Shown here: one piece after another, positions 1,348 to 8,863 of the stretch
Layout of the letters: each line of letters begins with the position of its first letter
Position numbering within the stretch: the stretch's first letter is position 1
Assembly (NCBI GenBank): GCA_947482115.1
Contig: CANKII010000002.1
Coordinates: forward strand, 62,001-126,000
DNA: 64,000 bases
DNA from: Fibrobacterota bacterium
GTDB lineage: Bacteria > Fibrobacterota > Fibrobacteria > UBA11236
Direction of reading: 5' to 3'
Program-made: the position numbers and the translations under genes
Notes under the pieces: model-generated
The model's database searches: none
Told to the model about the DNA's origin: nothing
What the model saw: the letters and a program-made list of their open reading frames with translations, nothing else

Positions 1348-1499
1348 TTGTGTTTCAAGAGCTGTCGCGATACAATTAGTTACCATGGAATCGATATCAT
1401 GGTGCGCTTCCACACAAAAGCGAATTTTTCCCGCTTCCCTGAGAAGTATGGCTTTATATTATTTCTAAAGGAAACCGAATTCTTTTTAAGGGGGGAGCT

Positions 1500-2297
1500 A
1501 TGAGACTCAATAAGAAATTACCGACCGCTTTGAGTGTTTTGTCCACAGTCCTGTTGACTTTCACTTTTTCGCACGCCGCGCAGGACACGGCTCGCGTCAA
1601 CTGCGGAGGCTCCGCCTACACCGATGTTGCAGGCCACGCCTGGGCCGCCGATTCGGGCTTCACTGGGGGCCAGACCTATTCCGAGGCCGGCACCACCATC
1701 AACAACACGGCCGACCAGACGCTTTACCAATATGAGCGGTGGGACTCGCAACCGTTTTCCTACAACTTCAATGTGACCCCGGGCAGCTACCGTGTCAGCC
1801 TGTACGAGGCGAGCCTCTATTCCGCCGTTTGCAACTCCGGCGGCCGCGTCTTCAACGTATCCATCAACGGTACCCAGGTGCTCACCAACTACGACATGTA
1901 CAACGAGGTCGGCTGTCTCACCGCCCAGATCAAGCAGTTTGTGGTCGTGACGACGGACGGGAAGATCAACATCACCTTCACCCTCGGCACCGCCTCAAAC
2001 CCCAAGATCGATGCCATCGAAATCGTCCCGGGAACGACCATCTCGATTTCAAACAAGCTGAACGGGAAACAATCATGGCTTTCGATATCCAATTTGAATG
2101 GCGGACTTTCCATTCAAACTCAGGCTGAGGGCGCTTACATTCTGGAACTGAGCAATCTCCAAGGTAAACGCATCGGTCAAAAACATGGGTTTGGGTCCGG
2201 GGTGCAATCCTTCAAGAACTTGAATCCGGGGCTGTATTTACTGACCTCCCGCATGGGCCATCAAACCGTCACACGCACAGTCAACGTAGTTCGATAA
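1500..2297 (+). CDS. Secreted malectin-like carbohydrate-binding protein with C-terminal sorting-like domain
   Basis: Has an N-terminal signal peptide (about residues 1-26, ending HAAQ). A malectin-type domain follows (about 28-178): it opens RVNCGG, has Y/W-rich strands, and ends KIDAIEIVPG, as in di-glucose-binding malectin folds. The last 85 residues (LSISNLNGG, NLQGKRIG, NPGLYLLTSR, final RTVNVVR) look like the beta-sandwich sorting tails of secreted FCB-group proteins, although that function is inferred. A purine-rich ribosome site (aaggggggagct) immediately precedes the ATG, and a terminator hairpin follows at 2320. No catalytic domain is visible, so binding of oligosaccharide or cell surface is the likely role. 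Confidence 0.75.
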   Translation: MRLNKKLPTALSVLSTVLLTFTFSHAAQDTARVNCGGSAYTDVAGHAWAADSGFTGGQTYSEAGTTINNTADQTLYQYERWDSQPFSYNFNVTPGSYRVSLYEASLYSAVCNSGGRVFNVSINGTQVLTNYDMYNEVGCLTAQIKQFVVVTTDGKINITFTLGTASNPKIDAIEIVPGTTISISNKLNGKQSWLSISNLNGGLSIQTQAEGAYILELSNLQGKRIGQKHGFGSGVQSFKNLNPGLYLLTSRMGHQTVTRTVNVVR

Positions 2298-2319
2298 AGT
2301 ACGGGCGAAACCCAAATCG

Positions 2320-2349
2320 AGCCGCTTCCTAACGGGGGCGGCTTTTTTG
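2320..2349 (+). terminator. Rho-independent terminator after the malectin gene
   Basis: Perfect 6-bp stem agccgc (2320-2325) / gcggct (2338-2343) with a 12-base loop, overlapping and followed by six T (2343-2348). It lies 23 bases after the stop codon of the malectin protein. Confidence 0.75.
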
Positions 2350-2361
2350 TTGCGTCTGATG

Positions 2362-2386
2362 ATTTGAATTTTGATATCATTCAAAT
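2362..2386 (+). promoter_or_regulatory. Inverted repeat abutting the VOC gene start
   Basis: Perfect 8-bp inverted repeat, atttgaat (2362-2369) and attcaaat (2379-2386), separated by 9 bases. The right arm ends at the base before the ATG at 2387. No Shine-Dalgarno sequence is present. It could be an operator or a hairpin that controls access to the start codon; nothing in the sequence decides which. Confidence 0.35.
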
Positions 2387-2815
2387 ATGACTACAATAAA
2401 TCCCTGGATTAATTTCAATGGCAATGCTGAAGAAGCATTTGTTTTTTACAGATCCGTATTCGGCGGAGAGTTTACGAAAGTGATGCGCTTCAAGGACATG
2501 GCAAGTCCTGAATTTCCCGTGGCAGAAAAAGATGAAAACAAGCTGATGCTCATTTCTTTGCCCATAGGCAAAAGCAATGTATTGATGGCAAATGATGTTC
2601 CGGAATTTATGGGACGAGTCAATGAGAACGAAAACAGAAGCAAAATTTCAGTAAGTACGGAAAGCAAAGAAGAAGCAGACAAATTATTTAACGGCCTTTC
2701 GGCCGGAGGAAAAGTAGAAGTGCCCATGGTGGATAGCTCGTGGGGATCCTATTTCGGGATGTTCAGAGATAAATACGGCATTGAGTGGGTCATTGAATTT
2801 TCTCCGGGTAAATAA
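2387..2815 (+). CDS. VOC-superfamily (PhnB-like, '3-demethylubiquinone methyltransferase'-type) protein
   Basis: A 142-residue protein with the paired beta-alpha-beta-beta-beta folds of the vicinal-oxygen-chelate superfamily. Diagnostic blocks are INPWINFNGNAEEAFVFYRSVFGG at the start and SSWGSYFGMFRDKYGIEWVIEF at the end, as in PhnB-like proteins of unknown substrate. It is clearly richer in A and T than flanking chromosomal genes, has no Shine-Dalgarno sequence, and stands alone between a terminator and a zone of gene remnants. These are signs of lateral arrival, perhaps from a Bacteroidota-type donor (inference). Family is sure; substrate unknown. Confidence 0.8.
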   Translation: MTTINPWINFNGNAEEAFVFYRSVFGGEFTKVMRFKDMASPEFPVAEKDENKLMLISLPIGKSNVLMANDVPEFMGRVNENENRSKISVSTESKEEADKLFNGLSAGGKVEVPMVDSSWGSYFGMFRDKYGIEWVIEFSPGK

Positions 2816-2886
2816 AATCCTCTTTCGAACATTGTCCCAAGTTCGGACTACTTCCTTCCCGCACCCTTCATACCTGTAAATCCCCG

Positions 2887-3025
2887 GCGCGGCCGGATGC
2901 CGCTGCTTATTCTGGCGAAGCTGGATGAGAAGGAAATCCGCCGTCTCGCCGAGCGTGTCGCTCCGGAGAAGGGTTGGGGTACGGTCCGGGTTTCACAAGA
3001 GGTGAAGGATTGTTGCGGATGATTG
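2887..3025 (+). pseudogene. glpD: Second, diverged copy of the glpD 3' end (remnant)
   Basis: Bases 2887-3025 align without gaps to 1212-1350 (constant offset 1675), with about 12 mismatches in 139 bases by my count. In frame it reads MPLLILAKLDEK...EVKDCCG and a stop, with about six changes against the C-terminus of the glpD at 1-1347. There is no upstream coding sequence, so this is a decapitated copy. It marks a duplication or recombination joint at the left side of the accessory zone. Confidence 0.9.
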
Positions 3026-3051
3026 CGTCAGAAGGATAACCGCAGCCTCAA

Positions 3052-3150
3052 GGCGTAGAATGCGTCCATGTCGATGTGGATGATTTTGCGGATCAAGGGC
3101 GGGTCGGCTTTGTCTATAAAGTCATTTCGGAGGCGGAAGAGCCCAGGAAT
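3052..3150 (-). pseudogene. dinB: Remnant of the 5' end of dinB (DNA polymerase IV)
   Basis: Read on the minus strand the segment encodes IRKIIHIDMDAFYA (its last residue at 3052-3054), the conserved N-terminus of Y-family polymerase DinB carrying the first catalytic aspartate. Directly after Ala the frame departs into unrelated residues and stops a few codons later. The rest of the polymerase is absent. The break lies about 27 bases from the glpD remnant, so both probably belong to one deletion joint. The limit on the N-terminal side is uncertain. Confidence 0.7.
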
Positions 3151-3179
3151 GTCCGCGCATACAGATCAGTTGGTAACTG

Positions 3180-3785
3180 TTATTGAGGACAGGTTTCCTT
3201 CATACGTTTACACAACTCTCCTAATACAGGGCAACGGGCTAGGATTAAATTAATATCGAGGTTGTCGATAAAGTTTTTAGAGGCAAACCCCTTCCTGTAA
3301 TCTTTGTCAGCGAGCTCGAAAAGCTTGCTCATGTCGCGATTGTTAAGGCTCTCTACAGGGGTGTATTTTCCGGGGACGCGGTGTTTCTGTTCTAACCGCA
3401 AGAATCGAAATATCCCTTCAACATCGTGAAAAAACCAAGATTCAATATCTTGAATAGCCTCAAACAAAACTAAATCTTTGTGACGAACCAGTCCCGAAGC
3501 GCAAAGCTCCTCTCTTATAGTAGCCATATTGATTGGCGCAAAACCTGTTCTCGACTCCCGATCAATTGCGATAAAAACACGAAATTTTTTTTCTGGATTT
3601 TTTCTTTGGTAATTTTCAAATTCGTCCAGAACTTTCTGGTTAATGTTCCAATTTCCCTCTAGGTTAATGATCTTGGCCGGAGTCCGTCGATGAAATAAAT
3701 CCTTGACTCTATGATAAAAAAGGTCCTCAGTAAAACCTTCGACCATCAGTAGAGTATAGGGTACGAGTCGCTTCTTCCTTTTCAA
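3180..3785 (-). CDS. DUF4276-type TOPRIM-like protein, putative nuclease/effector of a defence pair
   Basis: A 201-residue protein. Residues 11-20 read TLLMVEGFTE, the conserved-glutamate strand of TOPRIM-like folds (E16). Residues 71-77 read FIAIDRE, an acidic D-x-E motif (D75, E77). Residues 114-121 read IESWFFHD, the signature seen in DUF4276/RloB-type proteins. Family knowledge suggests a metal-dependent nuclease or toxin partnered by an ABC-type ATPase. The gene starts 5 bases after the ATPase stop on the same strand, so they form one operon. Base composition is AT-rich compared with the surroundings. Motifs are clear; enzymatic activity and defence role are inference. Confidence 0.7.
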   Translation of the reverse strand: MKRKKRLVPYTLLMVEGFTEDLFYHRVKDLFHRRTPAKIINLEGNWNINQKVLDEFENYQRKNPEKKFRVFIAIDRESRTGFAPINMATIREELCASGLVRHKDLVLFEAIQDIESWFFHDVEGIFRFLRLEQKHRVPGKYTPVESLNNRDMSKLFELADKDYRKGFASKNFIDNLDINLILARCPVLGELCKRMKETCPQ

Positions 3786-3790
3786 CGAGG

Positions 3791-4990
3791 TTACTCCGAC
3801 AACGTGTAATCATCTTTTTGGGATTTAAAATTTCCGGCAAATAGATCCCCAAAATTCACGTATTTACCTTTCAGTCTCGCCTCAAGATTTTTAATCGTTA
3901 ACGCTGGAATTAAAGTGCTTAGCCCTGTTTCGGCGCTCTCCATCAGGAAAATATTCTTTGGATCGAGGAGGTTTAACAAGTAAGCCGAATGTGTTGTAAT
4001 TATGGCTTGGGAGCCGGTTTCTCCGGTCAAAAATATCCGCAAGATTTTGTTCAAGGCCGACGGGTGTAATCCTATTTCTGGCTCCTCTATACACACGAGA
4101 GGCGGATTACTTATGAAAATATTGTACAGCATTAAGAAAAGAATCTTCGACCCGTCTGATAAGTTGGATATGAGCGTATGCCTTCTTTGGTGCTGTTCTG
4201 TGACTATGCAAAACAGAAATTGCTCTTCGGTATCTTTTAAATGCTTTGCGGCGTCATGAATTCTAATGTCGCTTAAGCCTAGGATTTCAATGTAGGCCCT
4301 TTTGAATTTATTGAATGACTGGGCGTTTCCTTCCTGGAGAGGGAAGATAAATTTTAGTGCATCGTCGATTTCTTTATCATACGCCCCATTAAGTTTGTGT
4401 GCACTAAAAGTAGGAGTTCTAAAATATTCCAAAAAATCAAGATATAGCGCGACGCAGTTTAATGACTCCGGGCCTATGGTTGGATCGACAGCGGACTTGA
4501 TTACTACGTAAGCGGGATCTTCGGCGCTAATGTCGTACTTCCTCAGCTTATCCGAAGGGGCCCTTAAAAAAAAGGATTTATCGGTTCGATTGAAAAATTG
4601 TTTAGGCTTTCCTGGCGATGATTTTTGTTTGTAATCAAACGACTCAGAAGTAATTACCAGGTTGCCTCTATTGCTTTTATTTTCAACTGTAACACTAATT
4701 ATTAGTCTATACGTGACCTCAAAAATTGACTCTGCTTTTTTGACATGTCCCACCAGCCGAACCTCAATTTGGTTTAGTCCGTTGAAGTAGCGCTTCACCC
4801 GGTCTTTTCCATCTTGGCCTCCAAAATGGAGGTCAGACAAGAACTTGAATATTTCTAGAAAGTTGCTCTTCCCAGAATTATTTGATCCTACAATGACGGT
4901 GGTTTGGTCCATAATTAACCGGCACTCCGAGAGGTTTTTAAACCCGGAGAAGTAAATTTCTTTGAGAGATTTTACGTGTAATTCATCCAT
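3791..4990 (-). CDS. OLD/RloA-like ABC-type AAA ATPase, putative sensor of a defence pair
   Basis: A 399-residue protein with an N-terminal YFSGFKNL strand, Walker A GSNNSGKS (35-42), ABC signature NLSDGSK (276-282), Walker B VCIEEPE (299-305) followed by IGLHP, and switch histidine H334 in ITTHSAYLL. This is the SMC/OLD-type ATPase fold. Unlike single-chain OLD nucleases there is no C-terminal TOPRIM domain; that function is supplied by the next gene. A Shine-Dalgarno (aaggcgg) lies 7-8 bases before the ATG. The two-gene layout resembles PARIS (AriA/AriB), AbiL and RloAB-type systems; I cannot assign it to one. AT-rich and probably acquired. Confidence 0.75.
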   Translation of the reverse strand: MDELHVKSLKEIYFSGFKNLSECRLIMDQTTVIVGSNNSGKSNFLEIFKFLSDLHFGGQDGKDRVKRYFNGLNQIEVRLVGHVKKAESIFEVTYRLIISVTVENKSNRGNLVITSESFDYKQKSSPGKPKQFFNRTDKSFFLRAPSDKLRKYDISAEDPAYVVIKSAVDPTIGPESLNCVALYLDFLEYFRTPTFSAHKLNGAYDKEIDDALKFIFPLQEGNAQSFNKFKRAYIEILGLSDIRIHDAAKHLKDTEEQFLFCIVTEQHQRRHTLISNLSDGSKILFLMLYNIFISNPPLVCIEEPEIGLHPSALNKILRIFLTGETGSQAIITTHSAYLLNLLDPKNIFLMESAETGLSTLIPALTIKNLEARLKGKYVNFGDLFAGNFKSQKDDYTLSE

Positions 4991-5255
4991 TTTAACCGCC
5001 TTATCCCCACAAATATCTCATTTATTGTCAAAAAACGTGTGAATAGGTGCTGATTTTAACCATGATTAACTTATTAAAAAAATATTGTTTCGAATCCCTC
5101 GTCCCCTTTATTTCAGTAGAAATTAAGGAGGTTAGGCATAATATTGGTTTTTAGGTTAAAAAAGGCCTGTTGAACTTTCACCGGCTCAGAGGATGGAAAT
5201 GAGGAGCTTGACGATCAGGAAGATGGGGCCCCGATTGGCTTGCTACTGTCTCTTC
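4991..5255. other. AT-rich non-coding stretch upstream of the ATPase
   Basis: No convincing gene. It holds the ATPase ribosome site at its left end, a tRNA-3'-end-like stretch at 5087-5106, and an isolated aaggagg near 5125 with no useful reading frame after it. A promoter for the ATPase pair must lie here, but I see no clean -35/-10 pair. Confidence 0.5.
5087..5106 (+). other. Possible att-site remnant resembling a tRNA 3' end
   Basis: gtttcgaatccctcgtcccc reads like a tRNA T-loop (TTCGAAT), the 3' strand of the T-stem and most of an acceptor 3' strand. No 5' half of a tRNA precedes it. Such 3' fragments are left by integrases that use tRNA genes, and it sits beside the ATPase/TOPRIM pair. 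It is short, so chance resemblance is possible. Confidence 0.3.
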
Positions 5256-5333
5256 CTAAAGGGCAGGTCTTAGCCACAGATAGTAGATGGCCGGATACAC
5301 TGCCAGTTCCATCAACACCGAACTCAAAACCCC
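5256..5333 (-). pseudogene. Remnant of the 3' end of a CusA/CzcA-type RND pump gene
   Basis: Minus-strand frame starting at 5333 encodes 25 residues, beginning GVLSSV, continuing LMELAVYPAIYYLW and ending RPAL with TAG at 5256-5258. This matches the extreme C-terminus of heavy-metal RND pumps, including the intact cusA of this window (LLELAVYPALYYLW). Codons differ from that copy, so it came from another homologue. It overlaps the last codons of the esterase gene in a different frame, so two genes are welded together here. Confidence 0.85.
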
Positions 5334-6433
5334 GCAGGGGCTCGCGGTGTGGCAAAGCGCTTTCCATCAAGGCTGTGCAGAATCGTGCTACCGTTAGTTC
5401 CGATTCTTTCAATGAGCACATCATTACCGTGGACAACCAGCCTCGTTTCCTTTCGGGCCTGACGCACGGAGTGCGAAGCGGTCAGGGCGACGGTGACGCC
5501 TGCGATCTTCTGTTTTGAAAACACCCAGTCGGTCAGCATCGGATGCCGCCAAGCCTCGAGCCATCCGGAGTTGTGCACGCCTCCCGTGATTTCTGAGTAA
5601 AGGAAGTTCTGCTTTGTCACGTATACCGCTTTGCGCAGGGAGTCCACGGAGATGGCCGTGGGGTTCACCTGATTGGCGGAGCTGACGAAGCGCACGATAG
5701 GCCTGCCGAGTACCACTTCCACCTTTCTCGCAACGGTGCGGGAACCGCGATCCACATTGATAGTGGGATCGGCGGAGCCGTGAAAGAGCCAGAACGGAGT
5801 TTGCGTCAGGTTGAGAATGGTGGAGGCTGCGGTGTCGCTTCCCCCGGCCGTCGGCACCGCCGCCGCGAATAGCGTCGGGTTCCATTTCATCAGTTCGAAG
5901 GACCCGAACCCGCCCATCGAAAGGCCGGCCACGTAAAAGCGCGTGGTATCCAGGGAGAACTCCCGCTTCAGCGAATCCAGGATTTGGACGATGGCGGCGT
6001 TGGCGATGCTGCGCGTTCCGCTCCACGTTCCGTTCCATGTTCCGGCCCAGTTGTTCCATGGCCACCAGTACTGGTTGTTCGTGGTGGGGCATTGCGGGAT
6101 CATCACGAAGTGCGGATGCTTGGCCTGCACGCTGTCGCGGACCCAGGGCTGGGCAAGTTCCTCCGCCGTGAGCTGGTTGACGTTGTTGTTTCCGCGCTCT
6201 CCCACTCCATGGAGGGCCACCACGATGGGATATTTCAGGGCCGGATTGTAATTCGTGGGCACATAGAGGCGGTACACCATGGTGATTTGAGAGGATGTAT
6301 ACGACCGCGCCTGAAACATGGCTTGAAGCTGGGCCGCAGTTTTGTTCTGGCCCCAAGCCGGGTTTGTGGCGAGGTTTGCGGCGAGGAGGGAAAGGAGAAC
6401 CGGGAGGATTCTCCGGAAAGAAAAGCGGATCAC
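5324..6433 (-). CDS. Secreted alpha/beta-hydrolase esterase (CE1/feruloyl-esterase-like), sorting domain truncated
   Basis: Signal peptide (residues 1-28, ending PAWG), then an alpha/beta-hydrolase domain: ALHGVGE oxyanion region, nucleophile elbow GLSMGG, an aspartate in HGSADPTI, and the histidine in GGVHNSGW. This suggests a polysaccharide-linked carbohydrate esterase. The C-terminal tail (VLIERI, LHSLDGKRFA) is the start of a sorting-like domain but stops at APAGF. Related tails continue with a Gly-hydrophobic-Tyr strand and about 15 more residues. The break coincides with the joint to the RND-pump remnant at 5333. It is co-transcribed with the ThuA gene (3-base gap). The fold is clear, the substrate inferred. 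Confidence 0.75.
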   Translation of the reverse strand: MIRFSFRRILPVLLSLLAANLATNPAWGQNKTAAQLQAMFQARSYTSSQITMVYRLYVPTNYNPALKYPIVVALHGVGERGNNNVNQLTAEELAQPWVRDSVQAKHPHFVMIPQCPTTNNQYWWPWNNWAGTWNGTWSGTRSIANAAIVQILDSLKREFSLDTTRFYVAGLSMGGFGSFELMKWNPTLFAAAVPTAGGSDTAASTILNLTQTPFWLFHGSADPTINVDRGSRTVARKVEVVLGRPIVRFVSSANQVNPTAISVDSLRKAVYVTKQNFLYSEITGGVHNSGWLEAWRHPMLTDWVFSKQKIAGVTVALTASHSVRQARKETRLVVHGNDVLIERIGTNGSTILHSLDGKRFATPRAPAGF

Positions 6434-7705: not shown

Positions 7706-8863
7706 TTAATTGTTTCGCCACGGTGCGTAGCCGTCAAGCGAAGCGATTTCATGACTCTTCATCGCTTGCAACAATTCCCGGTTCATCTTGATGACTGCAT
7801 TCCACCGATAAGCCAACACCGTATAAACCTGCACAGCGTCCGCTCCAGCCTCAAGCAAATCCAAAACCTTTTCCCCATGATCAATGCCGCCAGCCGCGAA
7901 GATGGCCATGTGCGGCAATTGCTTGCGGATGAAGCGTACGGCAGGCAATGTGTTTTGATACAACACGCGGCCCGAAACGCCGCCGAGCGCACCGGATTCC
8001 GCAAGCGGCAGAAAGTTTTCCTGCGCCGTCTGCATGTGCAAAAACTTGCTGCGATCTCCGGGGAAGGTGTTGAACAGCACCAGTCCGGTCACACCGGAAT
8101 CGGCCACGGTTTGCAGCACGGACTCCAGCGTCTTCATTCCCATATCGGGGGAGAGTTTGACGAAGACAGCCTTGCGCGGCGCAAGCGTGCGGCGAATGTC
8201 CATGACATGGCTGAGAATATCGCCGAGCAATTCCACATTGGTGTCGAGACGGGAATTTCCCGTGTTGGGACAACTCAAATTCAACTCGATATAATCGGCG
8301 GCTCCGTATCCCCGACGGAAGGTTGTTTCGACCTCGGAGAAAATCTGTTCCTCGTCTGTCACACCGGGTGTGTCCGTGACGCTGATGCCCAGCGCCATTT
8401 TGCGTTTGTGACAGCGGCCCAGATATCGATCCACTTCCTTCGCGATATGCTCAATGCCCGGATTGTTCAGGCCCATGGAATTTTGCATGGCGCGATCGAG
8501 TGGCAGAAGACTGACACGTGGGCGATGGGGATTGCCATCCCATTTATCCAAAGTGGCGGAACCCGTGGTGATGCCACCGAATCCGAGTTCGGCAAATGCC
8601 GGCAAACTCTCCGCCGTTTTGTTTCCACCCGCCGCGAGGAAAATCGGACTTCCCACCGTCAGCGGCAGACTGCGATCGTGAAAGCGGATGGTTTTCGTCA
8701 GCGCGGGAGCAGGATGATAATGCGAAGGAAGTGTTGCGCGCAACCGCGCATAGGTGGCGAGTAGGTGGTGGCGGGTTTCGGCATTGGAGATCAGGGATTT
8801 CGCAGTATCGAGAAAGCGATCGCCCAGGTCTTTTCCGTAATCGGGTTCGGGAGGAGAATCCAC
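7706..8863 (-). CDS. pyrD: Dihydroorotate dehydrogenase, class-2-like framework with a class-1-like cysteine
   Basis: Oxidises dihydroorotate to orotate in pyrimidine synthesis using FMN. FMN/substrate motifs are AAGGNKTAE, GITTGSATL, NSMGLNNPGI, ELNLSCPNTG, VKLSPD, GGVSGRVLY and AAGGID. The N-terminal extension and NxMGxNNxG motif resemble membrane-linked class 2 enzymes. However, the catalytic position in NLSCPN is a cysteine, as in class 1, not serine. Start codon is GTG at 8863; the ATG overlapping it is in another frame. pyrE lies 3.7 kb away on the other strand. The call is firm; the electron acceptor is uncertain. Confidence 0.85.
   Translation of the reverse strand: MDSPPEPDYGKDLGDRFLDTAKSLISNAETRHHLLATYARLRATLPSHYHPAPALTKTIRFHDRSLPLTVGSPIFLAAGGNKTAESLPAFAELGFGGITTGSATLDKWDGNPHRPRVSLLPLDRAMQNSMGLNNPGIEHIAKEVDRYLGRCHKRKMALGISVTDTPGVTDEEQIFSEVETTFRRGYGAADYIELNLSCPNTGNSRLDTNVELLGDILSHVMDIRRTLAPRKAVFVKLSPDMGMKTLESVLQTVADSGVTGLVLFNTFPGDRSKFLHMQTAQENFLPLAESGALGGVSGRVLYQNTLPAVRFIRKQLPHMAIFAAGGIDHGEKVLDLLEAGADAVQVYTVLAYRWNAVIKMNRELLQAMKSHEIASLDGYAPWRNN

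Follow-up and report, generated by a model that had tools for sequence, protein, structure and literature searches.

A cusA remnant at the end of a secreted esterase gene in a Fibrobacterota genome is probably a recombination scar

Introduction

In a Fibrobacterota genome, the end of a gene for a secreted esterase is directly followed by a short stretch of DNA that resembles the end of a gene for a heavy-metal pump. This raises the questions of where the pump piece came from, how it came to lie there, and whether the esterase was damaged in the process. We analyzed a window of 64,000 nucleotides containing this locus, which corresponds to positions 62001-126000 of contig C2 in genome G000 (2.7 Mb, 15 contigs). 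The relatives compared are three congeners (genus g1, G001-G003) and members of the sister genus g2 (G004-G009). In addition, the DNA at 1348-5340 was used as the query in a search of 168 genomes of the phylum. Our analysis suggests, with a probability of roughly 0.8, that the pump piece is a recombination scar, in which a 3' piece of a foreign cusA was joined at the esterase end in a variable spot of the genome.

Results and discussion

The pump piece is derived from another cusA

Two features are recognized next to the esterase gene.

5272-5335, minus strand: 3' scrap of cusA, about 21 codons (GVLSSVLMELAVYPAIYYLW), with DNA and peptide homology to CusA C-termini.
5256-5271, minus strand: LRPAL-stop end, in the cusA frame; a variable pump tail or sequence past a second breakpoint.

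The scrap comprises 60-80 bases and abuts the end of the esterase gene. The minus strand from 5333 to 5256 translates to GVLSSVLMELAVYPAIYYLWLRPAL followed by a stop (25 codons), all of which the original prediction assigned to the last 25 residues of a CusA-like pump. The reading and its likeness to CusA, in both peptide and DNA, were confirmed, but the end differs. In every intact CusA compared, the residues LW are followed by basic residues such as RRGKL, RGRKL or KKRKL, whereas the scrap has LRPAL-stop. Since this end is unlike any compared CusA tail, the homology can be relied on from 5335 to about 5272 and no further. A second breakpoint may be located near 5272, in which case LRPAL-stop would lie beyond the scrap.

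The scrap is equivalent to the C-terminal end of the CusA/CzcA heavy-metal RND transporters (TIGR00914). Unlike these proteins, which have about 1,050 residues, it contains only about 21-25 codons, with no start and no pump (RND) domains. It cannot be a pump and makes no product.

Intact relatives of the scrap were found in the sister genus. The best peptide matches are the C-termini of genus g2 CusAs, with 75-86% identity and E values of about 2e-7, and the CusA of the same genome (41005-44193) ranks behind them. When this latter CusA is the query, the scrap is the fifth and a very short match in G000 (E 4.5e-4, 73% over 22 residues). At the DNA level, 5273-5335 is 83% identical to the cusA of G009 over 63 bases (E 4.6e-10) and 78-82% identical to those of G008 and G016 in the search of 168 genomes. 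Over 20 codons, 51 of 60 bases are identical to the homologue in G005, the best match, and 49 of 60 to that in G009, compared to 43 of 60 for the genome's own cusA. The difference between 51 and 43 indicates that the donor was another CusA, in agreement with the original prediction. Many of the base differences between the scrap and its homologues are synonymous, which suggests that the source was probably a working pump gene until recently.

No cusA with this end, and hence no donor genome, was found among the genomes searched. No match to 5256-5000 was seen in the sequence downstream of cusA in related genomes, and a peptide-like reading downstream of the scrap, ANRGPIFLIVKLLISIL, has no relatives among the loci retrieved. 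Common ancestry with a glpD/RND neighborhood on contig C79 of G003 was considered and rejected; the genes there are arranged differently, and their pump is a distant one of the CzcA type. A broken pump gene is present on another contig of G003 (locus L046, C55:43983-44423). It matches an internal part of cusA over 147 residues, with 67% identity to the CusA in the window, and is interrupted by a stop.

The scrap lies within a variable segment

The scrap is one internal scar within a segment of about 11 kb, which contains the following features.

G000 C2:58637-69710: lineage-specific segment of about 11 kb, inserted beside DHOD (7706-8863); window positions 1 to about 7705 are its right-hand part.
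2887-3028, plus strand: 3' scrap of glpD, 44 codons and 7 bases beyond the stop, 91% identical in DNA to the intact glpD at 1212-1354.
About 3051-3096, minus strand: 5' scrap of dinB, (L/M)IRKIIHIDMDAFYA; at the DNA level, 33-43 bases match the beginnings of dinB genes in other Fibrobacteria at 88-97% identity.
3180-3785, minus strand: DUF4276 (TOPRIM-like) partner protein; Pfam DUF4276, 34.2 bits (cut-off 30.2), and weak matches to HEC-01.
3791-4990, minus strand: AAA_21 ATPase, a candidate anti-phage defense protein; Pfam AAA_21, E 2.2e-29, and best PADLOC match AriA, E 1e-28.

In G001 and G003, the gene matching G000 C2:57675-58637 directly adjoins DHOD, whereas about 11 kb separate the two in G000. 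A different gene is found beside DHOD in G002, and the esterase and ThuA homologues of the congeners are located elsewhere in their genomes. Together, these differences indicate that the spot beside DHOD is variable. The first three genes in the segment, named from their translations, are isocitrate-dehydrogenase-like, a hydrolase and glycerophosphodiesterase-like. They are accompanied by glpD and genes for a malectin-domain protein, a glyoxalase-like protein, the ATPase/DUF4276 pair, the esterase and a ThuA-like protein.

The ATPase and DUF4276 genes are the only open reading frames between the two scrap edges. Their GC content is about 0.41, compared to 0.59 for the esterase gene and 0.60 for glpD. 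Close relatives of the two proteins were not found in the genome, viral, phage and plasmid collections, and the matches to the ATPase in the 168 phylum genomes and on plasmids are all distant. Compared to the PARIS system, which is composed of AriA and AriB, the ATPase matches AriA (E 1e-28), whereas the partner is a DUF4276 protein with weak similarity to HEC-01 and not AriB. These similarities point to a candidate anti-phage pair, with an AriA-like ATPase and a non-AriB partner.

The glpD and dinB remnants postulated at the other border of the pair were both found, at the identities listed above. Such a duplicated glpD 3' end is what would result from an insertion with homologous exchange in glpD and illegitimate joining at its opposite end. 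The genes for the malectin-domain and glyoxalase-like proteins are located between the two glpD 3' copies (1212-1354 and 2887-3028). The dinB scrap IRKIIHIDMDAFYA is closest to the dinB starts of other Fibrobacteria families. The sole IMS-family gene of G000 looks like umuC, thus no intact dinB was found in this genome. Nearby, 3121-3140 is an exact 20-base match to a gluconolactonase-like gene in the same genome (C5:148761), which may be another scrap or due to chance. Both borders of the ATPase/TOPRIM zone therefore carry scraps, as proposed, but the CusA scrap is one of several scars in the 11-kb segment and the zone is not a single clean element. When the 23 intergenic stretches of the window were surveyed with a crude gene model, clear remnants of protein genes were found in only two, which are those on either side of the ATPase/DUF4276 pair; the database used was enriched for loci retrieved with these queries, which biases the comparison to the remaining stretches.

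We considered whether the scraps and the pair could have arrived together, as one contiguous donor fragment with the order cusA-ATPase-DUF4276-dinB on one strand, cut inside cusA and dinB and inserted whole. The four pieces are indeed co-directional, and cusA is cut on its upstream side and dinB on its downstream side, as random breakage gives. However, cusA and IMS-family polymerases are on separate contigs in the genomes of genera g1 and g2, no close relative of the ATPase was found in the 168 phylum genomes, and none of the genomes searched was found to have the ATPase pair flanked by cusA and dinB. The two scraps also differ in their affinities, the cusA scrap resembling genus g2 and the dinB scrap other families, and a separate event would still be needed for the glpD scrap. 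Insertion of a single fragment is thus unlikely, although it deserves more weight than the other alternatives below.

The esterase is of normal length for its genus

The features at the joint are as follows.

5330-5335, minus strand: junction microhomology GCGGGG, the largest common run when the window is aligned to cusA genes.
5324-6433, minus strand: gene for a secreted esterase, essentially full length; Pfam Esterase PF00756, E 2.5e-8; orthologues end equivalently.

At the joint, the sequence is GGCGGGGT in intact cusA genes and CCTGCGGGGTT in the window, so that up to GCGGGG is in common. The pump remnant is joined directly to the esterase end, as described previously, and the common run is not limited to the GGGG noted at the time. 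The esterase frame continues across the joint as ...TPRAPAGF-stop. Its final codons and its stop, TTT TGA, fall within the cusA scrap and are pump DNA, read in another frame. The esterase tail GATGGAAAGCGCTTTGCC weakly resembles, with gaps, the sequence just upstream in cusA, GATGAAGCGCATCGCC, and for this reason the break is not placeable to the base.

Final codons and a stop read from pump DNA might suggest that the esterase lost a longer sorting tail to the pump DNA and is damaged, and the original prediction held that about 15 C-terminal residues had been lost. Comparison with the orthologues contradicts this. The esterase in the window ends with LDGKRFATPRAPAGF, 10 residues after the L[DE]GK motif. 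The equivalent number is 7-13 in six relatives from the three congeners. The closest orthologue, in G002 (79% identity), ends with LDGKRYVDTRTIPKQMTP and is longer, but by three residues. A paralogue in G002 ends with LDGKPYHRVTPRP, the G001 esterase with LEGKKMEALVEEF, and the three copies in G003 with LEGKRVLPAGAAR, LEGRRVPAGASR and LDGKRFVKEVSNP. With its esterase domain and short tail after the motif, the protein in the window belongs to the genus family. Relatives outside the genus, including those in genus g2, have longer tails, in which about 20 residues follow the motif. This could be taken as a sign of loss, but as every compared relative within the genus ends at an equivalent position, it instead identifies the short tail as a genus trait. 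The tail residues are not conserved, and at most about three to five of them would have been exchanged at the joint. Damage to the esterase is accordingly very improbable. Judged by these comparisons, the gene appears neither truncated nor broken and the joint does not appear to be a functional fusion, which corrects a tempting annotation.

Even less credible is an assembly chimera: short unrelated scraps do meet at one point, but the joint is located inside a 505-kb contig, and misassembly would not usually yield scraps of 20-140 bases whose sequences differ from all copies in the genome.

The fused esterase end also forms a terminator-like hairpin at 5332-5347 on the minus strand (CCGCGAGCCCCTGCGG, then GGTTTT).

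A probable route of formation

The recombination scar was probably formed as follows. A short piece of foreign DNA with a cusA 3' end would have come from a related Fibrobacteria lineage. End joining at a few common bases (at most GCGGGG) would have attached it inside the last few esterase codons or immediately ahead of them. The esterase would have kept its catalytic domain and a normal length, as its frame is closed by a TGA that is out of frame in the pump DNA. The cusA scrap marks one edge of the foreign, lower-GC ATPase/DUF4276 pair, and the glpD and dinB scraps the other, the 11-kb segment being filled stepwise at the variable spot beside DHOD. Illegitimate joining during the uptake of foreign DNA, possibly aided by homology at glpD, appears to be the most economical account.

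The edges have no long terminal inverted or direct repeats, only short imperfect ones as chance gives. The terminal inverted repeats, target duplication and recombinase of a transposon or integron cassette are absent from them, and no tRNA was found near the locus. Ku genes are present in G003 and genus g2 genomes. None was found in G001, G002 or G000, so the latter is without the Ku gene that Ku-dependent end joining calls for.

A process in which one end is exchanged by homology and the other is joined illegitimately has been described (PMC3240628), and mosaic short segments have been reported after transformation (PMC13344027). Homology-facilitated and double illegitimate recombination in DNA uptake are also treated in the literature cited in PMC8116780 and PMC13344027. 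The exact phrase 'short-patch double illegitimate recombination' was found in no paper in our literature search. The locus resembles these processes in that foreign pieces are joined at a few common bases, the donor segments are short and form a mosaic, and, as for homology-facilitated recombination, homologous sequence is nearby, here the duplicated glpD 3' end. It differs from recombination observed during uptake in being a static scar, read from sequence alone.

Relation to defense genes in hot spots

Pseudogene remnants occur at the edges of acquired defense genes in chromosomal hot spots. Similarly, the lower-GC AAA ATPase/DUF4276 pair is flanked by scraps, and the segment around it varies among the congeners. 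Unlike such genes, integrase, tRNA and repeats are absent in and around the pair. The locus is an ordinary insertion scar and leaves the general understanding unchanged. It is a clear small case of a variable Fibrobacteria spot where donor-gene scraps can still be read on both sides of an acquired candidate defense pair. It is conceivable, although rather improbable, that the pair was captured by illegitimate joining of multiple patches, together with very short pieces of about 140, 45 and 63 bases that each came from a different gene in related bacteria. If so, this would be a route of defense-gene acquisition in a Ku-less Fibrobacteria lineage.
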